40,276 bases of DNA from Candidatus Gastranaerophilales bacterium. GTDB lineage: Bacteria > Cyanobacteriota > Vampirovibrionia > Gastranaerophilales > Gastranaerophilaceae. The DNA is taken from the NCBI GenBank assembly GCA_944325655.1, contig CALVAW010000017.1, positions 1 through 40,276 on the forward strand, read 5' to 3'. A program made the position numbers and the translations under genes. Below are positions 1 to 14,228 of the stretch, piece after piece; the stretch's first letter is position 1; every line of letters begins with the position of its first letter. The notes beneath the pieces are model-generated. The model did no database searches. It was given only the letters and a program-made list of their open reading frames with translations, and was not told where the DNA came from.

Positions 1-175
1 TTCCTGCCATAGTCGGCATTTTCTTGAGGAATTTCTGCCGTAATTTATACATTACTACATCAAGAGATGTTGTCAAGGATGAATTAATAATAATCTAATT
101 CTTGATTTTAGTAACACATATTATGGAATAATTTATCCCATATAATTATATAGTATTACATAAAAATATATTTTC

Positions 176-205
176 AACTTTGTAAAATTATTATTTACAA
201 AAGTT
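176..205 (-). terminator. Weak stem-loop after serC
   Basis: An imperfect inverted repeat lies just past the serC stop on the minus strand. The arms AACTTTGTAAA and TTTACAAAAGTT pair with one bulged base and a loop of about seven. It is followed on the minus strand by AT-rich rather than purely T-rich sequence, so it may be a weak terminator or only a 3' stabilising stem. The remaining bases 1-175 hold nothing that I can assign. Confidence 0.35.
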
Positions 206-211
206 TATATT

Positions 212-1309
212 TTATTTTGTGTTTTCTTTTTCAAATTTTTCCATAAACTCAACAAGTTTTTTAACTCCGTCGATTGGCATTGCATTGTATAATGAAGCAC
301 GCATTCCGCCGACGGTTCTATGTCCCTTGAGCTGCAATAATCCGTTTTTGGCAGATTCTTCAATAAATTTCTTATCAAGTTCTTCCGAGCCGGTAATAAA
401 AGGTATATTCATTAAAGATCTTGAGTTTTTCTCAACAGTACCTTTAAAAAGATTAGATTTATCAAGAAAATCATATAGAATTGCTGCTTTTTTCAGATTT
501 ATTTCTTTCATTTTTTCCAGTCCGCCAATATTTTTGAGCCATTTGAAAACTAAGCCGCAAATATATATTCCGTATGCAGGCGGAGTATTATATAAGCTGT
601 TATTATCGGCATGGATTTTATAGTTTAGCATTGTAGGACACCATGACGGTAAATCATCTCTGAGTAAATCATCTTTTATAATTACTATTTGAACTCCTGC
701 GGGTCCCACATTTTTTTGTACCCCTGCAAAAATTAAACCGTATTTTGCAATATCTACAGGTTCTGATAAAAAACAAGATGACATATCCGAGACCAATGTT
801 TTTCCTTTGGTGTTAGGTAATGTTTTAAATTTAGTTCCGTATATTGTATTATTTTCGCAAATATATACATAATCTGCGTTTGATGAAATATTTAAGTCGG
901 AGCAATCGGGAATGTATGAGAAATTTTTATCTTCAGAAGATGCTATTTTATTAATTTTTCCATATTTTTGAGCTTCTATATAGGCTTTTTTTGCCCATTG
1001 ACCTGTTACAATGTAATCTGCAATTCCGTTTTTAAGTAAATTTATGGGCACCATTGAAAATTGAAGATGTGCACCACCCTGTAAAAAGAGGACTTTATAG
1101 CTTTCCGGAATGTTTAAAAGTTCTCTAAGGTCTTTTTCTGCTGTTTTTATTATATTGTCATATACTTTACTGCGGTGAGACATTTCCATGACAGACATGC
1201 CTGAACTTTGATAATTCAGCATTTCGTCTCTTGCTGTTTCAAGAACTTCTACCGGTAAAACAGCAGGGCCTGCCGAGAAATTATAGACCCTATTATAATT
1301 GTTTGCCAT
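212..1309 (-). CDS. serC: Phosphoserine aminotransferase
   Basis: PLP-dependent class V aminotransferase that converts 3-phosphohydroxypyruvate and glutamate to O-phosphoserine and 2-oxoglutarate, the second step of serine synthesis (and 4-phosphohydroxythreonine in B6 synthesis); cytosolic homodimer. The 365-residue length is normal for SerC. The N-terminal YNFSAGPAVLP, the phosphate-binding LFLQGGAHLQF (about 74-84) and the Schiff-base lysine in FAGVQKNVGPAG (Lys199) are all present, with the family ending GGMRASLYNAMP. The start is supported by a strong GGGGAGA ribosome site upstream and a good promoter. It appears monocistronic; serA and serB are not in the window. Confidence 0.96.
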   Translation of the reverse strand: MANNYNRVYNFSAGPAVLPVEVLETARDEMLNYQSSGMSVMEMSHRSKVYDNIIKTAEKDLRELLNIPESYKVLFLQGGAHLQFSMVPINLLKNGIADYIVTGQWAKKAYIEAQKYGKINKIASSEDKNFSYIPDCSDLNISSNADYVYICENNTIYGTKFKTLPNTKGKTLVSDMSSCFLSEPVDIAKYGLIFAGVQKNVGPAGVQIVIIKDDLLRDDLPSWCPTMLNYKIHADNNSLYNTPPAYGIYICGLVFKWLKNIGGLEKMKEINLKKAAILYDFLDKSNLFKGTVEKNSRSLMNIPFITGSEELDKKFIEESAKNGLLQLKGHRTVGGMRASLYNAMPIDGVKKLVEFMEKFEKENTK

Positions 1310-1337
1310 TTTGTATCTCCCCTTATTTACTAGGGTT

Positions 1338-1366
1338 ATTATATTTTAAAATTTATTATCTGGCAA
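1338..1366 (-). promoter_or_regulatory. serC promoter
   Basis: On the minus strand TTGCCA, 17 bases, then TATAAT: one mismatch to the sigma-70-type consensus. The predicted start lies about 20 bases before the serC ATG, leaving room for the GGGGAG ribosome site. Confidence 0.7.
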
Positions 1367-1382
1367 ACAATTTAAGTTAAAA

Positions 1383-2165
1383 TTAATATATTTCTTCTTC
1401 CCCGAATTGATTTGCTGTTGTGTATCTGTCTTCAAGTTTTCCGTTAATATATTCATTTACTCGGTATATGTTGTCTTCTTCGTCATAACTCCATTTTTTT
1501 GAATATGTGTCACAAGTTCCTAATAATAATCCAAAGATGTTGTCAGCCGTTATTTTTTCCCAAGAATCTCCGCATATTACTTTTCCGCCGGGCTTTAATG
1601 CCACTTCTTCATATACATCAATAGTTCCATCCAGTCTGTAGTCGCCTTCATAAGTTATTTTTGATAAAACATCAAATTCATCGTAATAAAATTTTTCCGT
1701 GCCGCCGTTTTTGATATCTACGTTGGAATTTTCGTTTTGGCTTGTTGTGTTTAATTGAATTAATTTTCCTTCTTCGTCATATATATATTCATAATATTCT
1801 GTTTTATCTATAAGATTATCTCCATTTATATCTATTCTGTGCAATTCACTTGCAAGTCTGTCTTGTTCATCGTATGCAAAGGACATTTCCGTATAACTTA
1901 CATTTCTTCCGTTTTTAAAAGCGTCTTCGCATATTGCGGCATTTATTAATTTGCCTTCTTCATCATAGAAATATTTAAGACTTTTGCCAATTAAATCATT
2001 TTCATTGCTTTTTGCCTCGATTACATTTCCGTTTTCATCATATGTTAAAATTGTATTTGACCTTGACCAGAAGTATGTTCCCAAGGAATTATCTTCTATT
2101 GGATCTGGTCTGTCTAAATTTGGAAAATAATAAGAACTTTTAAAGCTTAATTCTATATTATTCAT
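1383..2165 (-). CDS. YD-repeat protein with EF-hand-like loops
   Basis: Unassigned 260-residue protein. It contains six spaced YDE motifs of the YDEEGKLI / YDENGNVI type (residues 42, 67, 98, 129, 161, 227), resembling the YD/RHS-like beta repeat that forms extended beta structures. Between repeats sit two loops matching the calcium-binding EF-hand pattern: DINGDNLIDKTE (112-123, with D/N at 1, 3, 5, D at 9 and E at 12) and DYRLDGTIDVYE (175-186, Arg at position 3). There is no signal peptide and no transmembrane segment, so by sequence it is cytosolic or exported by a non-Sec route. An AAGGAG ribosome site precedes the ATG. Downstream is the serC promoter. Function unknown; calcium binding is inference only. 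Confidence 0.8.
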   Translation of the reverse strand: MNNIELSFKSSYYFPNLDRPDPIEDNSLGTYFWSRSNTILTYDENGNVIEAKSNENDLIGKSLKYFYDEEGKLINAAICEDAFKNGRNVSYTEMSFAYDEQDRLASELHRIDINGDNLIDKTEYYEYIYDEEGKLIQLNTTSQNENSNVDIKNGGTEKFYYDEFDVLSKITYEGDYRLDGTIDVYEEVALKPGGKVICGDSWEKITADNIFGLLLGTCDTYSKKWSYDEEDNIYRVNEYINGKLEDRYTTANQFGEEEIY

Positions 2166-2261
2166 TTTATTTCTCCTTAAATATCCATGTTAAATTTTTT
2201 ATAATTAAATAAAGTATTTTGAGAAATAAAAATTGCCTAAAAATTATATATTTTTTATATA

Positions 2262-2283
2262 ATGTTATAAAATTTTATAACAT
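2262..2283. promoter_or_regulatory. 22-bp perfect palindrome
   Basis: A perfect 11+11 palindrome, half-site ATGTTATAAAA, lies between miaB (ending at 2298) and the YD-repeat gene (starting at 2165). On the minus strand it is followed closely by a TATATAAT-like box, so it could be an operator for the YD-repeat gene. It could also fold as an AT-rich stem with an AATT loop behind miaB, but there is no clean T-tract. Confidence 0.4.
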
Positions 2284-2297
2284 TTTTGTTGCTTATT

Positions 2298-3596
2298 TTA
2301 TTCGCTTTTTCCAAAACAACACCATGTTGAAACACGTTCAATTTTTACATTTACAAACTGACCTATTTCGTAATTTTTATTGTCTGTGATGTGCACTACT
2401 TTATTGTTTCTTGTTCTTCCTTGATATACACCATCTTTTATATTATCAATTAATACTTCCATGGTTTTATTTATATATTTTTTGTTTGATTTCAAATGCG
2501 CTTCTTTGACTTTGTCATTTAATATTGCGAGTCTTCTTTTCTTTTCATTTTCTTCAATAAATAAATCGGTCATTTTGCCCGCTTTTGTAATGGGACGGGG
2601 AGAATATGCGGCAGTATTTGAATAATCAAGTTGTAATTCATCAATAGCTCTTATTGTATCCATAAATTCTTTTTCGGTTTCTCCCGGGAAGCCTGCTATA
2701 AAATCTGAAGTTATAGTAACATTTTTAATATTTTTTCTTATTTTTTCAACTATTTCTTTATATTGTTCAACATTGTAACGCCTGTTCATAGCTTTTAAAA
2801 TTCTATCATTACCGGATTGCATTGGTATATGAAAACATTCGCAAATTTTATCTGCGTTTTTCACCGTTTCTATTACTTCATCCGTAATGTCGGTCGGATA
2901 TGAACTTGTAAATCTTATTCTGAATTTTCCTTCAAGTTTATCTAGTTCTTGTAATAATTTAGCGAAATTTGGCTTGCCTTCTAAATTTTTTCCATAACTG
3001 TCAACATTTTGACCAAGTAAAGTTATTTCTTTATAGCCTTGAGAAAGAATATTTTCTGCTTCTTTAACAATTGCTCCGATTTCTCTTGAACGTTCGCGTC
3101 CTCTGGTATATGGTACAACGCAATATGAACAAAAATTATTGCAGCCTTCCATTATTGATAACCAAGCATTTACGCCTTTCTCTCTTTTTATATTATAGTT
3201 TTTATCTTCGCAAAAATAATCTTTTGTTGCGCAAATTCTTTCATTTTCAATTTTTTTCAGTAAATCAGGAAGTTCGTAAATATTTTGCGGACCTACCACC
3301 AAATCTAAATACGGGAATTTTTTTAACAGTTTTTCGCCTTCTAATTGTGCAACGCAGCCGGCGATAACTATTTTTGCCTGTTTGTTTTCTTTTTTTATTC
3401 TTCCCCAATTGCCGAGGCGAGAATATGCTTTATCGGCTGATAGTTGTCTTATGGCACATGTGTTTACAATGTATAAATCAGCATTTGATTCTTCTTTTGT
3501 TTGTATGTAATCAAAATGAGTTAGCATGCCCAAAATACGCTCTGTATCATATTTGTTCATTTGACAGCCGAGAGTATCAATATATACTTTTTTCAT
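2298..3596 (-). CDS. miaB: tRNA-2-methylthio-N6-dimethylallyladenosine synthase MiaB
   Basis: Radical SAM methylthiotransferase that adds the 2-methylthio group to i6A37 of tRNAs reading UNN codons. The 432 residues show the full layout: an N-terminal UPF0004 domain with the three cluster cysteines C11 (DTLGCQMNKYD), C47 (NTCAIR) and C81 (AGCVAQ); the radical SAM CxxxCxxC at C152/C156/C159 (EGCNNFCSYCVVPYTRGRE); and a C-terminal TRAM-like region (MEVLIDNIKDGVYQGRTRN). The NTCAIR and VVPYTRG signatures favour MiaB over MtaB or RimO. Its ATG overlaps the TGA of the upstream synthase gene (ATGA), indicating translational coupling. Confidence 0.96.
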   Translation of the reverse strand: MKKVYIDTLGCQMNKYDTERILGMLTHFDYIQTKEESNADLYIVNTCAIRQLSADKAYSRLGNWGRIKKENKQAKIVIAGCVAQLEGEKLLKKFPYLDLVVGPQNIYELPDLLKKIENERICATKDYFCEDKNYNIKREKGVNAWLSIMEGCNNFCSYCVVPYTRGRERSREIGAIVKEAENILSQGYKEITLLGQNVDSYGKNLEGKPNFAKLLQELDKLEGKFRIRFTSSYPTDITDEVIETVKNADKICECFHIPMQSGNDRILKAMNRRYNVEQYKEIVEKIRKNIKNVTITSDFIAGFPGETEKEFMDTIRAIDELQLDYSNTAAYSPRPITKAGKMTDLFIEENEKKRRLAILNDKVKEAHLKSNKKYINKTMEVLIDNIKDGVYQGRTRNNKVVHITDNKNYEIGQFVNVKIERVSTWCCFGKSE

Positions 3597-4897
3597 ATTA
3601 TATGTGCTCCGGGGACATGTTCCAGTCTCTCCATTCTTTCTTTGAGAGCTCCGGATGGAGAATAATACGGATCTACAGTCATTATTTTTGCTGCTATATC
3701 GGGATAAAAATATATAAATCTTAATTCACTGTCGGTTAGAGGTTTTTGAGTATGAACATTAGCGTATCTGGCAAGTTCCAAGATGTTTCTTGCTTCGTTT
3801 TCGTCATGAAATTCTAATTCAAGCCCTTGATATACGTTTCTAAAACCCTTTATTCCTCCGTATTCGCCGATTGTAATCATTCTTCCGGTTTCAATTATTT
3901 CCGGTTCGCCTCTTCCTAATTCTTCAAAGTCATAAAGCTCATAGTTTCTTCTGTCTTTTAGAGCACCATCTGCATGAATTCCAGATTCATGTGCAAAAGC
4001 ATTCGCACCGACTGCAACCTGATTAATCGGTATGGGAACACCAAAAGCATAACTTGTATATTTTGCAAGCTTCCAAGCTTTTGAAATATCAATTTGAGGA
4101 TCTATTTTATATTTGTTTTTAAAACCACTTGATTTTGTGATTGCAAGCAAGCATGATACTAAATCGGCATTACCCGCTCTTTCTCCCATGCCGTTTATAG
4201 CTGTATTTATCCAAGCGTCAACTCCTGCATCTATAGCTGCTTTTGCTCCCATAACAGAACATGCTGTTGCCATACCTAAATCGTTATGAAAATGAAGCTC
4301 GATATCCATTTTTGTTTCTTTAGCTATTGCATATATTCTGTCATAGGCATTTGTCGGGTCGTCATATCCCAGCGTGTCGCAGTATCTAAATCTTGCGGCA
4401 CCGTATTTTTTGCATTCCTTTGCGTATTCAATTAAATATTCCAAATCCGATCTTGAGGCATCTTCTGCGTTTACCCCGATTATTTTTGCATTTTGACTGA
4501 CAGCTTCATTTATAGCTTCCAGTGTATCGTTTAATATATCTTTTTGATTTTTTTTGCCTTGATATTTGCCGGCTATCATTTGATTTGAGGTTGATTGACT
4601 TAAATTTATATATTTAAGTTTAGGAACATTATTGAACGATTCCTTAACATCACTTTTAATTGCTCTCATCCATCCTGAAAGTTTTGTTTTGTTTATAACA
4701 CCTCTTTCCACAAGTTCGAGATTGCCGTTTAAATAGTTGATTTCGTGTTGTGTTGTAGGAAATCCAAATTCGGATTGATTGATTCCCATTTCGTTCAACA
4801 TAAGATTAATAATTGTTTTTTCAAGCTTAGCAAGTCCCAATCTTGAAGTCTGTACGCCGTCTCTGTTTGTTACATCTACAAATTTTATATAGTTCAT
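3593..4897 (-). CDS. Homocitrate / 2-isopropylmalate synthase family protein
   Basis: DRE-TIM metallolyase that would condense acetyl-CoA with a 2-oxo acid. The N-terminal TIM barrel carries R12-D13 (VTNRDGVQ), E145 (VNAEDASRSDL) and the metal-binding H202xH204 (ELHFHNDLG), followed by GMGERAGNADL and AHESGIHADG, the linker that covers the active site in isopropylmalate and homocitrate synthases. At 434 residues it is longer than a bare NifV type (about 380) and shorter than LeuA (about 510), so it lacks a full LeuA regulatory domain. The catalytic loop reads TNRDGVQ rather than the usual TLRDGEQ. Substrate cannot be assigned: homocitrate, isopropylmalate and citramalate are all possible. First gene of a two-gene operon with miaB; GAGG ribosome site before ATG. 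Confidence 0.85.
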   Translation of the reverse strand: MNYIKFVDVTNRDGVQTSRLGLAKLEKTIINLMLNEMGINQSEFGFPTTQHEINYLNGNLELVERGVINKTKLSGWMRAIKSDVKESFNNVPKLKYINLSQSTSNQMIAGKYQGKKNQKDILNDTLEAINEAVSQNAKIIGVNAEDASRSDLEYLIEYAKECKKYGAARFRYCDTLGYDDPTNAYDRIYAIAKETKMDIELHFHNDLGMATACSVMGAKAAIDAGVDAWINTAINGMGERAGNADLVSCLLAITKSSGFKNKYKIDPQIDISKAWKLAKYTSYAFGVPIPINQVAVGANAFAHESGIHADGALKDRRNYELYDFEELGRGEPEIIETGRMITIGEYGGIKGFRNVYQGLELEFHDENEARNILELARYANVHTQKPLTDSELRFIYFYPDIAAKIMTVDPYYSPSGALKERMERLEHVPGAHII

Positions 4898-4925
4898 ATA
4901 GTCCTCAATAAAATATTTTAAAAAA

Positions 4926-4934
4926 ATTATATCA
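4926..4934 (-). promoter_or_regulatory. Extended -10 promoter of the synthase-miaB operon
   Basis: On the minus strand TGA followed by TATAAT, an extended -10 (TGnTATAAT), about 30 bases before the ATG. There is no convincing -35, as is common with extended -10 elements. Confidence 0.5.
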
Positions 4935-5005
4935 CAATGAAAAAATAACTTTATGTTTAATTTATGTTACAAATAATTCATATTGAGGGTTGCATTATTT
5001 TTAAA

Positions 5006-5035
5006 TTGTATTAGAATAATCGTATAGATTATAAT
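5006..5035 (+). promoter_or_regulatory. Promoter of the 271-aa membrane protein gene
   Basis: TTGTAT, an 18-base spacer and TATAAT, with a predicted start near 5042 and a GAGG ribosome site at 5057-5060 ahead of the GTG. Confidence 0.6.
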
Positions 5036-5065
5036 TATGGTTTTTAGTCATCTTTTGAGGTAAAA

Positions 5066-5881
5066 GTGCAAATAAATAATCTTTTAAATTGTTGCAAACC
5101 AAGACACTTTGGTAATAGTGCAACTGAAAGTTGTCCAGAGGGGAAAAGATTGCGATATAAGCATTACGAGGAGATGGACAACGATACTTTAAGTAAATTA
5201 TGTCTTAAAAAAGCATACGATACGGCGCAAAACAGCAAAAAAATGCGAATTCGAAATTTAATACCTGCATTAGCAGTGGGCGCAATAGGAACAAGTGTAG
5301 CAATAACCCAACCCGGAAAACTGGCAAATAAACTTGCTTATGGGTTGGGTTTTTTAGCCATTACAGGCGGAGTCGGTGCTCTTTCTAAAAAAGTAACTTC
5401 TTTAGCGGATGAAATCGGCTCTGTTAAAAAAGGCAATGGCAAGGATGATTCAGCAAATAAAAAAGCGGCAAGATTTGGTTTTACCGCAGGTTTTTTAGCT
5501 ATGGGTGCAGCACTTTTAGCTTTATGCTCTGCACCTAAGCTTATGGCTAGCATGGCAACAAAGCATCCGCAAAATAAATTGATTAGATTTATAGCTTCAG
5601 AGAAAGATAAATTGGCTGCTGAAATTAACGATTCAAAATTAGGAAAATTTGTTGAAAATAAATTAAATCCCTTCTTAAAGAAGAATCCAAAAACAGAAAA
5701 AGCTTTGGATATTTTTGCTCCGATAGCTGCTGTTTTGGGTTTTGTTCCTATTTATTCAAAATTAACTAAAAGTATCTCTGATGATATAAGAAAAAATGCA
5801 ACCGATAATTTCTTTAAAGCTAAGTTAATTCAAAAAAAAGCAAAAGAACATTTTGATAAAATCGAAGCTCAGGAAGTTTAA
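5066..5881 (+). CDS. Four-helix membrane protein, lineage-type unknown
   Basis: Not recognised as a named family. GTG start, chosen because TTTTGAGG stands five bases before it. The 271 residues begin with a polar, Cys-containing N-terminus (NLLNCCKPRHFGNS) without a signal peptide. Four hydrophobic segments follow near 64-82, 88-106, 136-156 and 214-231, joined by lysine-rich loops, with a basic amphipathic C-terminal tail (about 240-265). The alternation of helix pairs and charged coils resembles each half of the 587-residue protein at 19674-21437, though I see no long identity. Single gene with its own promoter and terminator. Likely an inner-membrane protein; role unknown. Confidence 0.8.
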   Translation: MQINNLLNCCKPRHFGNSATESCPEGKRLRYKHYEEMDNDTLSKLCLKKAYDTAQNSKKMRIRNLIPALAVGAIGTSVAITQPGKLANKLAYGLGFLAITGGVGALSKKVTSLADEIGSVKKGNGKDDSANKKAARFGFTAGFLAMGAALLALCSAPKLMASMATKHPQNKLIRFIASEKDKLAAEINDSKLGKFVENKLNPFLKKNPKTEKALDIFAPIAAVLGFVPIYSKLTKSISDDIRKNATDNFFKAKLIQKKAKEHFDKIEAQEV

Positions 5882-5933: not shown

Positions 5934-7628
5934 TTAGTGTAATGTGTCTTTATATATTTTGTATACTTTACCGGATTTAATTTCTTTAAATTCTTTCTTA
6001 TCATCCAGATCTGTTATTTTTGTTCTTGTCAGAATATAGACATTTTTGCGTTTATTTTTCTCAATGTAGTCTATAAGTTCATCATAGTTATCTTTGTTGC
6101 TTGTTACTATATATTTTATTTTTTTCTTCGGATTTAAAATAGAATATTTTGCACTAAAACCGTAGGTTACGGTTTGGGAATTTTTTTGTTTGTTTATAAA
6201 AGCCGCATATTCTTCAAGTTCATCTTGTGCGAAACTTGTGTAGTACGGTATACCAAAGTCGCATGTTACATATACTGCACCAATCATTAGCGCAAGATGA
6301 AAAACAAAGGTTTGCAAAAGCCTTTCTTTTTTAATTGAATCAAATGTATATAACGAAATTATAAATATGTATATTAATGACGGAAAAGCAAATGTTGTAG
6401 CATTGTCTATATAGAATTCTATATTTTCGGGTAATACCGCTTTATATACAAGTGCAAAAATAAGTCCTAAAAAGGAAATTGTTGCAAATAAGATTGAATT
6501 AATATAATTAGATATCTTTAATTCTTTTTTGTTTTCTCCGTATTGAATGGCTCTATACCATAAATTTCCAATTATAAGCGAAAGAGCCGGAAACATTGTT
6601 AAAATATAAGGCGGAAGTTTTGTGCTTGCACATGAGAAAAACAAAAAGACACAAATTGCATAAGTATACGCAAATATCATAGCCTTTTTGTCCGGAGTAT
6701 CTATATAGAAATGTTTTTTAAATTTGATTTTAGCTATAAGTTTTTTTATGTCCTTTATTACTACTACTATAAAATTAAAAGTCCAAGGAATGAGTCCGGC
6801 AAGCACAATGGGGACATAAAATAAAAACGGTTGTTTTCTTCCGAGACCTTCTGAATTTAGTAGTCTTGCAAAATGATGTTTTAAAATATACATATTTATC
6901 CAATCGGCACCGTATGCTTTGTAAATCATAATATGCCATGGCAGCGAAATTATAAGAAACAGTGCTAATCCCGGTAGAATATATATTGGTTTAAATATTT
7001 CTTTAAGTTTTCCAAAGGTCAAATATGTGAAAAATACTACTAAAGAAGGTACGGCCAGTCCTATAAAACCTTTTGCAAGTATAGATATTGCCATGAAAAT
7101 ATAGCCTAAATACCAGTATATTTTTTTTCTTTTTTCTTTTTCTTCAAATAAAGGCAGAACTGCAAAATAAATTGCACACATGGAAAATACCATAAAATTA
7201 AGATCAAGAATTGCAACATGGGTAAAAACTAAAAACCAAGCAGATGCCAATAAAACGCTTGCGCTTAAAAATCCATATAATTTATCATTAAGAATTTTTT
7301 TAGCAAAGAAATATGTAAATAATACTCCGAAGCTTCCAACAAAGCCCGTTGCAAAACGGCTTGCAAAAATACTTTGTGCATTAAAAAACTTAAAAGACAG
7401 CACATTTAGCCAGAAATACAGAGGAGGTTTTTCTAAAAACGGTTCAAAGTTTAATATCGGTGTTAAGTATTCTTTTGTTAAATACATATACTTGCTCATA
7501 TTTACATATCGTGTTTCATCGATATCTATGAGGGGGTATATTCCTATGTTTGAAAATATAAAAAGAATGCAACCTAATATTAGTACTAAAATATAGCAAG
7601 GTTCTATATCTATTTTTTTGTCTTTCAT
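5934..7628 (-). CDS. ArnT/PMT-type (GT39/GT83) membrane glycosyltransferase
   Basis: Polytopic C-type glycosyltransferase of 564 residues with about a dozen hydrophobic segments. The first extracytoplasmic loop holds the acidic catalytic motif IDIDETRY and the family block PFLEKPPLYFWLN. Later come ILAKGFIGLAVP and SCASTKLPPYILTMFPAL, both typical of the ArnT / 4-amino-arabinose transferase and YycA-like group. The C-terminus (about 460-564) is a soluble domain, as in ArnT. It would transfer a sugar from a polyprenyl-phosphate donor to lipid A, a glycan or protein; the substrate cannot be read from sequence. It starts directly after the mazG stop (TAAATG) and ends against the shared terminator. 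Confidence 0.85.
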   Translation of the reverse strand: MKDKKIDIEPCYILVLILGCILFIFSNIGIYPLIDIDETRYVNMSKYMYLTKEYLTPILNFEPFLEKPPLYFWLNVLSFKFFNAQSIFASRFATGFVGSFGVLFTYFFAKKILNDKLYGFLSASVLLASAWFLVFTHVAILDLNFMVFSMCAIYFAVLPLFEEKEKRKKIYWYLGYIFMAISILAKGFIGLAVPSLVVFFTYLTFGKLKEIFKPIYILPGLALFLIISLPWHIMIYKAYGADWINMYILKHHFARLLNSEGLGRKQPFLFYVPIVLAGLIPWTFNFIVVVIKDIKKLIAKIKFKKHFYIDTPDKKAMIFAYTYAICVFLFFSCASTKLPPYILTMFPALSLIIGNLWYRAIQYGENKKELKISNYINSILFATISFLGLIFALVYKAVLPENIEFYIDNATTFAFPSLIYIFIISLYTFDSIKKERLLQTFVFHLALMIGAVYVTCDFGIPYYTSFAQDELEEYAAFINKQKNSQTVTYGFSAKYSILNPKKKIKYIVTSNKDNYDELIDYIEKNKRKNVYILTRTKITDLDDKKEFKEIKSGKVYKIYKDTLH

Positions 7629-8390
7629 TTATTCCTCTTTTTCTGTAAGATTTTTTGCTTTTGTCCAAAGATTGTTATATTCTTCAAAACTAAGTTCACA
7701 TAATTTTTTTTCAGATAATTCTTCCAATTTATTGAATCTTTTTATAAATTTTTTGTTTGCTTTACAAAGTGCAAGTTCAGGATCTATATCATTCCATCTT
7801 GCAAGATTGACAAGCGAAAATAGAATATCGTCCATTTCTTCTTCTTTTTCATCTTTTGTTTTTGCGTTTTTAAATTCTTGAATTTCACTTAAAAAACACT
7901 GTTCTACCTGTTCTTTATTTTTCCATTCAAACCCTGCCCTTGCAGCTTTTTTTGATATTTTCATGCAATATAAAAGAGCAGGAAGTGTTGATGGGATGCC
8001 GTCAAGTATTTTTTTTCTTTCCTTTTTTTCTTTTGCTTTAAGTTTTTCCCAATTTTGGAGTATTTTTTTTGTGTCTGTTGTTTTTTCGCCACCAAATACA
8101 TGAGGATGTCGGTGTATAAGTTTTTCATTTAAAGTTTTAGCCACGTCTTCAATTGTGAATTCCTTATTGTCATCTGCTATTTGACAGTGTAGTACGACCT
8201 GTAAAAGAACATCGCCAAGTTCTTCTTTTAGATGTTCCGTATTATTTTCATCTATTGCTTCTGCTGCTTCGTATGCTTCTTCCAACATGTTTTGTCTTAT
8301 TGTTTTGTGGGTTTGCGCTCTATCCCATTCACATCCTTCCGGAGAACGAAGCATTTTTACAGTTTCAATTAATTTTTTAAGATAACTCAT
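7629..8390 (-). CDS. mazG: Nucleoside triphosphate pyrophosphohydrolase MazG
   Basis: Hydrolyses (d)NTPs to NMP and pyrophosphate, a housecleaning enzyme. At 253 residues it matches the two-domain MazG. The first domain has the Mg-binding pattern EEAYEAAEAID followed by EELGDVLLQVVLHCQIAD and HPHVFGG. The second repeats the logic more weakly (IQEFKNAKTKDEKEEEMDDILFSLVNLARW). The opening GCEWDRAQTHKTI matches the conserved CPWDxxQTHxSL block. First gene of a two-gene minus-strand operon with the glycosyltransferase, which is probably a coincidental pairing. Confidence 0.95.
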   Translation of the reverse strand: MSYLKKLIETVKMLRSPEGCEWDRAQTHKTIRQNMLEEAYEAAEAIDENNTEHLKEELGDVLLQVVLHCQIADDNKEFTIEDVAKTLNEKLIHRHPHVFGGEKTTDTKKILQNWEKLKAKEKKERKKILDGIPSTLPALLYCMKISKKAARAGFEWKNKEQVEQCFLSEIQEFKNAKTKDEKEEEMDDILFSLVNLARWNDIDPELALCKANKKFIKRFNKLEELSEKKLCELSFEEYNNLWTKAKNLTEKEE

Positions 8391-9832: not shown

Positions 9833-10899
9833 TGATTATTTCAGATAACGAAGATAATAAAACAAAAAAAGCACTCAAGCATATTAATTCTGACTTGAGT
9901 GCTTGTTGTAATAAAAATGAGGACGGATATGAAAAAAATATCCGCCCTTTGAATTTTGATGATTATATAGGACAAAATTCAATCAAAGAAACATTGAAAA
10001 TATCTATAGAGGCAAGTAAAAAAAGAAAAGTAAATCTTGACCATTTATTGTTTTACGGGCCTCCGGGGCTTGGAAAAACAACTCTTGCCAATATAATAGC
10101 AAATGAATTAAATACCGGAATAAAAATAACTTCCGCTCCTTCTATTGAACGTCCAAGAGATATTATAGGTATATTGATGCAGATAAAAGAAGGAGAAGTT
10201 CTTTTTATTGATGAAATACACAGGTTAAATAAAATTGCCGAGGAAATTTTATATCCTGCAATGGAAGATTTTGTTATAGATTTAACAACAGGAAAAAATC
10301 AAAGTGTTAAAACAGTCAGAATTCCCATACAGAAATTTACTTTAATTGGCGCAACAACTAAAGCGGGAGCTTTATCAGGACCATTGAGAGATAGATTCGG
10401 AATAATTCACAGGCTCGAATTTTATACTGCAGAAGAACTTAGCAAAATAGTTAAAAGGACGGCGAAAATTTTAAATTTTAAGATTGACGATGGTGGCGCC
10501 ATGGAAATTGCCAAGCGTTCAAGATGCACGCCGCGCATTGCGAACAGACTTGTTAAAAGGAGCGCCGATTGGGCAATTGTCAAAGGTGATGGAGTAATAA
10601 CAAAAGATGTTGCAAAAGCTGCACTTTTAGCTCTTGATATTGATGAAATAGGACTTGATACAACAGATAGAGCTTTGCTTAATTTAATGATAAAATCATT
10701 CAACGGAGGGCCTGTAGGAATAGAAACATTGGCGGTGGCTCTCGGTGAAGATATAAGAACCATAGAAGATGTTTATGAGCCTTATTTAATACAAAAAGGC
10801 TTAATTGCAAGAACGCCGAGAGGAAGAAAAGCAACCTCGTTTGCTTATGAACATTTAGGCTATAAATCTGATATTTCGCAGCTTGGTTTGTTTAGCTAA
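9832..10899 (+). CDS. ruvB: Holliday junction branch migration DNA helicase RuvB
   Basis: AAA+ motor that drives branch migration with RuvA at Holliday junctions. It has Walker [10 protein letters not shown] (76-84), Walker [10 protein letters not shown] (124-132), the sensor-1/arginine-finger block [19 protein letters not shown], and the C-terminal winged helix ending [21 protein letters not shown]. It is 355 residues, with an unusual polar extension of about 35 residues before the family start ([11 protein letters not shown]). The ATG is used because it overlaps the transporter stop and no better in-frame start exists before the conserved core. No ribosome site is visible, so translation is probably coupled. 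The first codons contain a strong hairpin (see 9869-9904). Confidence 0.96.
9869..9904 (+). promoter_or_regulatory. Hairpin inside the ruvB 5' coding region
   Basis: An 11-bp perfect stem (AAGCACTCAAG / CTTGAGTGCTT) with a 14-base loop, preceded by an A-run and followed by TTGTTG, lies 37 bases into ruvB. A second, shorter stem (CGGATAT / ATATCCG) follows at about 9924-9945. The first looks like the terminator of the upstream transporter gene engulfed by the ruvB reading frame, or an attenuator. Confidence 0.55.
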
Positions 10900-11252
10900 A
10901 AAGGAATTTTTTTAAAAGCATTGATAATTTCTTTAGGAGCTGCAGTTTTTGGTTTTATACCGAATTTTGCACACAGATACAACAAGATTTGTTCAATGAT
11001 TTTATATTGTGTGATTTCACCTTTTGATTTTATTTGGATTTTTTCTTTTCCGACATTAATTAAAACACCGTCTCCTCTTGGGTTTTTAAGGGGAGATAGT
11101 ATAATTTCATCTTTATCTAAAAGCTTTGAAATTTTTGGACTTTGAACAAATGATTCAACTTCTGTAATTATTTTTTCAGGATTGCTTCTTTTTAAAGTTC
11201 TGTTTAAATTAGGGTCTATTTTAAGTTTTGCTCTAAAAGTGATTTCATTCAT
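10896..11252 (-). CDS. Small conserved-looking unknown protein
   Basis: Unrecognised 118-residue protein, soluble, with no signal peptide or membrane segment. The middle has a beta-rich pattern ([37 protein letters not shown]), followed by two predicted helices ([30 protein letters not shown]). Last gene of the csaB-hisAIE-acyltransferase run, 21 bases after the acyltransferase gene. Its TAG interlocks with the ruvB TAA on the other strand through the shared bases CTAA, so the two coding regions overlap by four bases tail to tail. Confidence 0.75.
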
Positions 11253-11273: not shown

Positions 11274-11957
11274 TTATTTTTTTTGCTCTAAATATTTTTT
11301 ATAATTTTCTTTTAAGTCTTTGTATAAATTTTGTAATGTTTTTTCGATTTTTAAGCGAATATCTTCTATTTCTTCATCGGATGGATTTTTGGGTACGGGT
11401 ATCGGATCTGCAAATAACATCACCAGATTAGTTCCGAATAATGGAAATCTAAATTCATCCCAAGATTTAAATTTTAAAAATCTTTTTTCAGGACTCCAAT
11501 ATACAGCCGGTACAATTGGTACTTCAGCCATTTTTGCGATTTCTATAATTCCTTTTTTTACTATTCTGTTTGGTCCCTTGGGACCATCAATCGTAAGTGC
11601 GCCGTTTATATTTTCGTTTTGAATTCTTTTAATTAATTCTAAACTTGCTTTTGTTCCGCCTCTTGTTTTTGAACCTCTTACTGTTTCAACCCCGACTGCA
11701 TTCGCTGCTCTTGAAATTATTTCTCCATCTTGTGAGCTTGAAACCATAATGCAGGTTTTTCTATATTGATTACATGAAAATACACCGCATTGATGAGCAT
11801 GCCACAGCGCAAACATACATTTTTCTTTAGGGTAATTTATGCATTTGCATTTATAAAAAATTCTCTCCAGTCTGAATAAATTAACTACAAAAAAACACAT
11901 TATCTCGGTGCCGTATCTCTTTTTTATTTGTTTGAATTTATTTGATAAATTAAGCAC
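11274..11957 (-). CDS. DUF374 lysophospholipid acyltransferase family protein
   Basis: Membrane-associated acyltransferase-like protein of 227 residues. The DUF374 landmarks are present: FALWHAHQCGVF in place of the classical HX4D site, IMVSSSQDGEIISRAANAVG, the diagnostic ETVRGSKTRGGTKAS, then ALTIDGPKGPNRIVKKGI and VPIVPAVYW. Members of this family resemble lipid A or phospholipid acyltransferases; the acyl acceptor is not known from sequence. It follows the hisA-IE fusion by 16 bases in the same operon and sits with csaB, which together suggest envelope lipid or glycan work. Confidence 0.87.
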   Translation of the reverse strand: MLNLSNKFKQIKKRYGTEIMCFFVVNLFRLERIFYKCKCINYPKEKCMFALWHAHQCGVFSCNQYRKTCIMVSSSQDGEIISRAANAVGVETVRGSKTRGGTKASLELIKRIQNENINGALTIDGPKGPNRIVKKGIIEIAKMAEVPIVPAVYWSPEKRFLKFKSWDEFRFPLFGTNLVMLFADPIPVPKNPSDEEIEDIRLKIEKTLQNLYKDLKENYKKYLEQKK

Positions 11958-11973
11958 TTTTCAAATGACCTTT

Positions 11974-13206
11974 CTATTTTTTTGTTCTTGAAGTTAAATT
12001 GTTCCTTATATCATCAATAGTTACATTATTCTTAGACATAAACACAAATAAATGATATAAAAGTTCGGCACCTTCCCAGGCAAGCCCTTCAGTTTGTTCA
12101 AAATTGACAGCTTCAAATGCTTCTTCCATAATTTTTTTCTTTAAAAGAAAATCATCTCTAAATAAAGTTGATGTATAGCTGTTTTGAGGCATTTTTTCTT
12201 TTCTGTCTTCAATTAATTCATACAATTCTTCAAATGTGAAATCTTTATCTTGAAAACAGCTAAACCGGTTTAGATGACAAGAATTGCCTTTTTGTCTTAC
12301 CGTAAATAAAATTGCATCTCTGTCGCAGTCAAATTTTGCGTTTAATAATTCTTGGTAATTTCCGTGTTTTTCGCCTTTTGTTCTCAAAGCATTTCTTTTT
12401 CTTGAAAAATATGTGCAAATACCTTCTTTGAAGGATTTTTTAAGTGATTCGACGTTGCTATATGCAAGCATGACAACTTGTCTTGTCATTTTATCCTGTA
12501 CAATAGTGGGTATTAAGCCGCCTTGTTTTTCAAAGTCTAAACAAGCGCAAAAAGCATCTTCAAGCGTGATTTTTCCAGTGTATATACACATTCCTAATTG
12601 AGAACTTATATTGTTTTTTTCAAGTTCGACAATTTCTTCTATTGATGAAATTCCGCCTGCTGCTGTTATCGGTTTTGACGTAGATGAAGCAATTTGCTTG
12701 ATAAAATTAATATCAGCTCCCTGCATCATTCCTTCTCTTTCAACTACCGTAAATACAAAACCCGAGCAATAGTCTTCAAATCTTTTAACATAATCTAATG
12801 TGGAGAATTCGCTAACTTCCATCCAGCCTTTTGTAGTTATTTTGCCGTCCCTTGAATCTATTGCAACCAGTACTTTAGATTTCGGAAGTTTAGACAAAAA
12901 ATCTTCGCTTGCAGCTGTCCCGATTATAATTTTTTTAGCACCCCAAGAGAGGACTTTTTTTGCTTTTTCTATTGTTCTAATGCCTCCGCCGACTCTTGCA
13001 GAACCTATTTTGCATATTTTTTTAATTAATTCTTCATTATTTTTACCGGTATTCATTGCACAATCAAGGTCAATTACTGCTATTTCTCCAAAACGTGAAT
13101 AATATTTTGCAAGTTCTAAGACATCTTCACGCTCTAAAACTTTGTTTTTTCCTTGTTGCAGTTGAACTGCCTTTCCGTCCATTAAATCAATACTTGCTAC
13201 AATCAT
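11974..13206 (-). CDS. HisA-HisI-HisE trifunctional histidine biosynthesis fusion
   Basis: One 410-residue chain carrying three consecutive steps of histidine synthesis. Residues 1 to about 222 are HisA, the ProFAR isomerase barrel: Asp7 in ASIDLMDGKAVQL, GGGIRT, catalytic Asp117 in VAIDSRDGKITTKGW, AAGGISS. Residues about 228-322 are HisI, the PR-AMP cyclohydrolase: GGLIPTIVQD, YFSRKRNALRTKGEKHG, Zn-type CDRDAI and CHLNRFSCF. Residues about 326-410 are HisE, the PR-ATP pyrophosphohydrolase: ELIEDRKEKMPQNSYTSTLF, KIMEEAFEAV, GAELLYHLFVF. HisIE fusions are common; attachment to HisA is not. The catalytic order along the chain is the reverse of the pathway. The ATG overlaps the csaB stop (ATGA). 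No other his genes lie nearby. Confidence 0.94.
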   Translation of the reverse strand: MIVASIDLMDGKAVQLQQGKNKVLEREDVLELAKYYSRFGEIAVIDLDCAMNTGKNNEELIKKICKIGSARVGGGIRTIEKAKKVLSWGAKKIIIGTAASEDFLSKLPKSKVLVAIDSRDGKITTKGWMEVSEFSTLDYVKRFEDYCSGFVFTVVEREGMMQGADINFIKQIASSTSKPITAAGGISSIEEIVELEKNNISSQLGMCIYTGKITLEDAFCACLDFEKQGGLIPTIVQDKMTRQVVMLAYSNVESLKKSFKEGICTYFSRKRNALRTKGEKHGNYQELLNAKFDCDRDAILFTVRQKGNSCHLNRFSCFQDKDFTFEELYELIEDRKEKMPQNSYTSTLFRDDFLLKKKIMEEAFEAVNFEQTEGLAWEGAELLYHLFVFMSKNNVTIDDIRNNLTSRTKK

Positions 13207-14228
13207 TTCATGCTCCTAAATTCTAACACATTATCAATGCATTTCCAGTTGAATTTTCTGTAATTAATAATTTCCTTTTCTTTTGTGAAAAAGTTTGTCA
13301 ATTTTGTTTCAAGTTCTTTTGGCTCATAATTATTGATATCAATATTTTCAATATTAAGTTCATTTGCAATGGTTTCGATTTTTTTGTCATAAATAAGGGC
13401 AAAGGTTTTTGTTTTGAGCGCATGAGATATTAATACCCCATGGAGCCTCGTTGATATCATATATTTTGCTCTGTTTACAATTTCTATTGTTTCATTTATT
13501 GATTTATTAGATATATATTCTGCTTTTATATTGTATTTCTTTAAAATTTCAATAAATTTTTTACAAATTTTTTCATCAATTTCATCCTGAAATGAAAAAA
13601 CATTTATTTTTTCGTTGTTTTGGTTTGCTTTTTTAATTGCATTTGCCAGATTTTCAAGAAAAATATCATCCATTCCTTTAAAATCTCTTAATTGCACAAT
13701 TATGTCTTTTTTCTCATTGCAAATTTCTATATTTTGTACAATTGAATATACGGGATCCGAAACCAGCATTGGTGATAATCCCCAATTTTTCAGGAGATTA
13801 AAACTGTTTTTATCTCTTACGGATATAAAATCCGTTGTTTTAAGAATGTTTTTTGTTATTAGTGTTTGAACTTTTCCTTTAATTGGTTCAATTCCTTGTG
13901 CAAATATAATTGTTTTTTTAAAAAATAATTTAGCGATGAGTATTATAAAAAGGTAATAAAAAAGGCTCAAATTGCTTGTTTTATTTTGTAAAAGACTTCC
14001 GCCGCCCGAAATTAAAATATCGCAATTCATTATTGCTTTTAGTATTTGTGCGGGTTTTTTATAATTATATGTTTTTACGTTATATTTCTTTTTTACTTCT
14101 TTTTTATTGTTGCAAAGTACGCTAATTTCATATCCCAATTGTTTCAGGTGGGTTGAAAGAGCAAGAAATATTGCTTCATCTCCGAAATTATTAAAACCAA
14201 TATAACCCGAAACTAACACCTTTTTCAT
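13203..14228 (-). CDS. csaB: Polysaccharide pyruvyl transferase, CsaB type
   Basis: Transfers pyruvate from phosphoenolpyruvate to a cell-wall polymer; in bacteria and cyanobacteria CsaB ketalises the glycan that anchors S-layer-homology proteins. The 341 residues show the glycosyltransferase-B-like fold signatures: GYIGFNNFGDEAIFLAL (7-23), DILISGGGSLLQNKTS, the FAQGIEPIKG turn, SVRDKNSFNLL and a late STRLHGVLISHALKTK. All match CsaB. It heads a minus-strand operon with hisA-IE, the DUF374 gene and a small unknown. No ribosome site is visible before its ATG. Confidence 0.88.
   Translation of the reverse strand: MKKVLVSGYIGFNNFGDEAIFLALSTHLKQLGYEISVLCNNKKEVKKKYNVKTYNYKKPAQILKAIMNCDILISGGGSLLQNKTSNLSLFYYLFIILIAKLFFKKTIIFAQGIEPIKGKVQTLITKNILKTTDFISVRDKNSFNLLKNWGLSPMLVSDPVYSIVQNIEICNEKKDIIVQLRDFKGMDDIFLENLANAIKKANQNNEKINVFSFQDEIDEKICKKFIEILKKYNIKAEYISNKSINETIEIVNRAKYMISTRLHGVLISHALKTKTFALIYDKKIETIANELNIENIDINNYEPKELETKLTNFFTKEKEIINYRKFNWKCIDNVLEFRSMK

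Follow-up and report, generated by a model that had tools for sequence, protein, structure and literature searches.

The window, a stretch of 40,276 nucleotides from a Candidatus Gastranaerophilales bacterium, encodes HisA, HisI and HisE in a single gene on the minus strand (13206..11974) that starts with ATG and runs for 410 codons without an internal stop. The gene is supported by its open reading frame, by Pfam and NCBIfam matches and by the occurrence of the same fusion in ~60 related genomes. The HisA (ProFAR isomerase) barrel occupies residues 1–221 (12544..13206, minus strand), the HisI (PRA-CH) domain residues 222–320 (12247..12543, minus strand) and the HisE (PRA-PH) domain residues 321–410 (11974..12246, minus strand). 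The corresponding Pfam matches all exceed their cut-offs: His_biosynth (PF00977) at residues 1–214 (3.1e-48), PRA-CH at residues 246–319 (3.5e-26) and PRA-PH at residues 326–407 (8.2e-15). This domain order confirms the proposal of the initial annotation that one chain carries steps 4, 3 and 2 of histidine biosynthesis, i.e., in reverse of the pathway order. HisI starts right at the end of HisA (at about residue 221; LDFEKQGGLIPTIVQD), practically without a linker. A sequencing error masking a stop between residues 222 and 230 is excluded because ~60 genomes assembled separately, with identities as low as 45%, carry the frame through the junction, which likewise bears out its continuity. The NCBIfam HisIE profile PRK02759 is barely passed (187.4 bits vs. 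a cut-off of 187), and the HisA equivalog profile TIGR00007 is missed (169 vs. 228.95 bits), as it is in homologues from genomes that carry the histidine pathway (171.7 and 151.8 bits). In an AlphaFold2 model (mean pLDDT 82.5; residues 309–322 and 368–375 unreliable), the barrel finds its best Foldseek matches among HisA/PriA structures and the remainder matches HisIE structures.

Upstream of the fusion lies csaB (polysaccharide pyruvyl transferase; 13203..14228, minus strand), the stop codon of which overlaps the fusion start codon (ATGA; AAATGATT), with AGGAG just upstream. Downstream, and beginning 16 bases past the fusion stop, a DUF374 gene (11274..11957, minus strand) was identified by profile match and by gene order in relatives; its product is presumably acyltransferase-like. 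A PADLOC search with the fusion and three neighbours returned no defence-family match.

The closest named relatives of the window genome are Candidatus Gastranaerophilales metagenome-assembled genomes (Melainabacteria). A scan of 386 genomes from the phylum found full-length copies of the fusion in the window genome's own family, in families elsewhere in its order and, within the class, in one additional family (G373). Matches to photosynthetic cyanobacteria and to family f3, which is of this class too, were confined to separate HisIE and HisA. The fusion seems to be old within Melainabacteria because of this spread, which includes a copy from Candidatus Obscuribacter that is 45% identical and adjoins hisD. 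Within the genus of the window genome it is found in 20 of 28 genomes; seven genomes of the genus lack both fusion and pathway, as do many members of the family. One genome of the genus (G295, contig C9; L057, L085, L086, L098, L111 and L113) has a compact his cluster in the place of the fusion, with separate HisIE and HisA and the order G-IE-D-B-H-A-F, which may have been gained from outside or may result from faulty binning. A contig of G295 and locus L019 seemed identical, but on checking only their equal length proved to be shared by chance. In genus g6, one genome (L153; G345:C10, ~1–5200) matched hisD in part and the fusion at two further places, piecewise and in a frame with an in-frame TAA, which apparently reflects a separate his cluster and not the fusion.

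The initial annotation had called the HisA-HisIE architecture unfamiliar, and it is indeed little described. A survey of 2007 gives five his fusions, and HisA with HisIE is not among them (PMC1963479); the HIS4 (HisIE-HisD) and HisHF (HIS7) proteins covered there also join several histidine steps, but with other partners. A literature search on histidine in Gastranaerophilales or Melainabacteria yielded nothing relevant. However, HisA/F-HisIE fusions have been reported from four archaeal metagenome assemblies (PMC11237513), the likeness lying in the combination of domains described. Those cases are scattered and were not analysed further in that work, whereas the fusion studied here is fixed across a bacterial order and retained without the pathway.

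Thirteen of the 20 fusion-bearing genomes of the genus carry HisG and HisH. HisB was found in 12 of these 13 (missing in G306, 91% complete), and HisF also in 12 (missing in G294, 77% complete, and partial only in G303); HisD is present in every pathway-bearing fusion genome checked. Neither a second HisI nor a second HisA was detected in the 13 genomes, where the other barrel is HisF. Since the fusion is the sole copy of HisA, HisI and HisE and stands directly before hisD, it is very probably a trifunctional enzyme in these histidine-making relatives, as judged from gene content. In G306, the fusion (L076; G306:C117) contains one in-frame TAA and hisD an in-frame TGA; together with the missing HisB, these defects could represent early decay or an assembly error.

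The window genome itself (1.69 Mb, 98.8% complete) has no above-cut-off match to HisG, HisD, HisF, HisH or HisB, and the same five proteins are lacking in all seven orphan genomes of the genus, i.e., those that bear the fusion without the pathway. These fall into clade 1 (five species: the window genome G000, G164, G200, G292 and G307) and clade 2 (G246 and G296). Weak HisH matches in the seven genomes score far short of the cut-off and seem to resemble other glutamine amidotransferases. Two weak PF00977 matches elsewhere in the window genome were considered as hisF and rejected, as reading of their translations points to thiG-like and pyrD-like genes. In the fusion tree, pathway-bearing genomes separate the two clades at well-supported forks, and the pathway was therefore lost at least twice in the genus.

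Pathway-bearing relatives have hisD in front of the DUF374 gene, immediately following the fusion and, in L008, overlapping it; in the window only a short gap is left (11958..11973, minus strand). The order csaB-fusion-DUF374 without hisD recurs in clades 1 and 2, with a similar short junction in all five clade 1 genomes and a different, longer one in clade 2. The initial annotation had described the operon partners as envelope genes rather than his genes, which holds for the window, but this arrangement was produced by deletion of hisD from between the fusion and the DUF374 gene. Because gene order, junction and the residues R275, K280, H281, T347 and E381 are common to all five clade 1 genomes, we infer a single ancient pathway loss in their common ancestor; its age follows from shared derived characters and is undated, with dS near saturation.

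An ordinary trifunctional enzyme that channels three successive histidine intermediates, as first proposed for this gene, would agree with the presence of all three domains in one chain and with the status of the fusion as sole copy in pathway-bearing relatives. For the window organism this proposal is contradicted by the gene content. HisG, the supplier of the first substrate, is absent from the window genome and its six orphan relatives along with HisD, HisF, HisH and HisB, so that histidine channelling cannot be the role of the fusion here: PR-ATP is not formed by the known route without HisG, and PRFAR is not used without HisF and HisH. With hisD deleted from an otherwise conserved gene order and the HisI substrate loop altered (see below), we regard histidine channelling in this organism as very improbable. 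The case is also a warning for annotation, as automatic calls would credit three histidine enzymes to a genome that cannot make histidine by the known route.

The domains differ in how far their catalytic residues have been preserved. In HisA, D7, W128, T153 and the GG motifs are kept. The alignment puts Glu (E158) at the place of the second catalytic Asp (D176 in SeHisA, D175 in MtPriA) in every fusion it contains, also in those that serve as the sole HisA of pathway-bearing genomes; this conservative change is therefore ancestral and no part of the orphan story. In HisI, the metal ligands D293, C294, D295, D297, C310, H311 and C317 (the DxDxD and Cys/Cys-His/Cys sites) are all kept, but the adenylate/phosphate loop (residues 275–281; 12364..12384, minus strand) reads RTKGEKH instead of WTKGETS, a change fixed in all five clade 1 genomes by which the near-invariant W, T and S became R275, K280 and H281. 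AMP is held at its adenine and phosphate by W107, K109, T112 and S113 of WTKGETS in the structure of plant HisIE, where the metals are bound by three Cys, one His and three Asp (PMC8102479). HisIE enzymes (PDB 6j2l; 7bgm, HISN2) align end to end with the C-terminal 190 residues of the fusion and share its HisI metal-binding residues; unlike them, the window protein has a HisA barrel directly in front, an altered adenylate loop and no accompanying histidine pathway. In HisE, E361, E362, E365 and E378 of the EExxE...ExxD motif are kept, but the near-invariant D381 of this metal-binding motif is Glu, and D381E, K347T, Y354L and R357K are all fixed or nearly so in clade 1. The catalytic motifs had been described as complete, a description to be qualified in view of HisA E158, the HisI loop and HisE D381E.

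Counted over sites that are near-invariant across all other fusions, clade 1 has changed at 1 of 107 in HisA, 4 of 39 in HisI and 4 of 41 in HisE. Clade 2 has changed at none of the 107 HisA sites, at 11 of 39 in HisI and at 1 of 41 in HisE; its HisI has lost the Cys and His ligands, which destroys the zinc site, while HisA is retained. T280 has been replaced by K in both clades, and HisA is the conserved part common to them.

Decay is the expected fate of enzymes whose pathway has been lost, and one explanation for the orphan gene is that the pathway was lost recently and erosion of the fusion is still pending. The destroyed zinc site of clade 2 and the many family members lacking both pathway and fusion point in this direction. 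For the clade 2 pair, dN/dS is 0.065 and the fusion evolves no more slowly than its neighbours, which may reflect partly relaxed selection. Clade 1 behaves differently. Pairwise dN/dS is 0.026 at dS ~1.3 (HisA 0.018, HisI 0.028, HisE 0.036), compared with 0.025 for the fusion in close pathway-bearing pairs. The stem of clade 1 on the fusion tree is no longer than that of its pathway-bearing sister (0.116 vs. 0.129), with 22 vs. 36 fixed changes, and the mean difference of the fusion within the clade (4.6%) is the lowest of ten neighbourhood proteins, below any of eight neighbours (RuvB 8.5%, CsaB 28%). The clade 1 fusion is under purifying selection as strong as that in pathway-bearing relatives. 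Five species with near-saturated synonymous divergence, low dN/dS and an unaccelerated stem make slow decay unlikely, and we set it aside for clade 1.

Genus g14, with HisF in 10 of 14 fusion-bearing genomes, provides the contrast case, as here orphan fusions do erode. G180, G194 and G424 (80% complete) show no HisF but just a strongly diverged fusion, with catalytic residues gone in all three domains; G420 (85% complete) has a normal fusion, HisF not being found. Evolution of the three diverged fusions is accelerated by a factor of 4 to 20 or more (branch lengths of 0.51–2.08 vs. 0.01–0.12). True relaxation of this kind differs clearly from clade 1, and slow decay may apply to these three. 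Their frames are nevertheless open, compared with none of 1000 neutral simulations at the same divergence, which left out indels and ignored constraint predating pathway loss. Retention of a lone fusion is thus not always equivalent to enzyme activity. In G194 (L149; G194:C8, ~6679–7812), the HisA half lacks most motifs and the HisI half still scores as a cyclohydrolase; this could be a pseudoenzyme or a new protein with an open frame. In g14 the fusion belongs to another operon, where nadD- and yqeK-like genes (so named from reading of translations; L148 and L151) precede it. Enzymes of the nadD and yqeK types handle adenine dinucleotides, and the adenine-dinucleotide link may be due to chance.

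The open yet catalytically damaged g14 copies could also be taken to suggest that the protein serves as a non-enzymatic scaffold or is kept through operon coupling with csaB and the DUF374 gene, in line with the ATGA overlap and the conserved gene order. Coupling, however, leaves the amino-acid constraint unexplained; the catalytic and phosphate-binding residues of HisA are kept in both clades 1 and 2, and the g14 copies reside in an unrelated operon beside nadD and yqeK. We therefore consider a scaffold or coupling role quite improbable.

HisA homologues in Actinobacteria are known to have been retained as phosphoribosylanthranilate isomerases (PMC5404923), and a TrpF or PriA-like role of the HisA domain would agree with the absence of TrpF and with PriA among the best Foldseek matches. 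TrpC, too, is lacking from 27 of the 28 genomes in the genus, leaving no pathway to serve; the absence of TrpC and TrpF rules out this role, to which we assign practically no probability. The one exception among the 28 is G309 (L115 and L116, G309:C73), which has TrpC and TrpF; all other members of the genus appear incapable of tryptophan synthesis by the usual route. In Actinomycetaceae, PriA/subHisA/subTrpF are likewise HisA-family barrels kept as pathway genes vanish, but there the gene goes with one of the two pathways and comes under relaxed selection, with dN/dS of 0.06 to 0.15 (PMC5404923); in clade 1 neither the his nor the trp pathway is left and selection is unrelaxed.

We thus consider it probable, from comparative sequence evidence, that the fusion is a trifunctional histidine enzyme by origin that is kept in clade 1 by selection for a function outside histidine synthesis. 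It would have arisen in Melainabacteria as a combined PR-ATP pyrophosphohydrolase, PR-AMP cyclohydrolase and ProFAR isomerase, and its status as sole copy suggests that it still performs the three steps in relatives with the full pathway. The ancestor of clade 1 would then have lost hisD and the remaining pathway, and the fusion would have persisted through selection for another function. As the HisA barrel is almost unchanged, it probably still acts on a phosphoribosyl compound in the manner of an isomerase. The HisI pocket for the adenine and phosphate of PR-AMP appears rebuilt with basic residues around an intact metal site, which would fit a changed ligand. Any new role would be dispensable to some, since seven genomes of the genus lost the fusion too.

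As to the reaction, it is possible, though we put it forward tentatively, that the repurposed fusion acts on another N1-ribosylated purine or a related phosphoribosyl compound. Cyclic ADP-ribose is a chemically exact candidate substrate, for which there is no specific sequence evidence; a mammalian enzyme cleaves the pyrophosphate of cyclic ADP-ribose to N1-(5-phosphoribosyl)-AMP, the substrate of HisI (PMC5773619). A GTP-cyclohydrolase-like role, with ring opening and Amadori rearrangement, was also considered. HisA chemistry outside histidine synthesis has a counterpart in AdeK, a HisA homologue of nucleoside antibiotic clusters (PMC13055916), but AdeK is an extra copy in a biosynthetic cluster, whereas here a single ancestral copy is joined to HisIE with no such cluster in view.

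Here a complete three-step enzyme has outlasted its pathway in several species, fully constrained by purifying selection and with one substrate pocket rewritten, while decay or other outcomes are seen where the pathway was lost independently within the family. This amounts to a natural experiment in the acquisition of a second role by a pathway enzyme. Near the fusion, the window also encodes a 118-residue protein (10896–11252, minus strand) with no Pfam match, which is only 40–53% identical among clade 1 genomes, compared with 70–96% for their other genes, and is thus very fast evolving.
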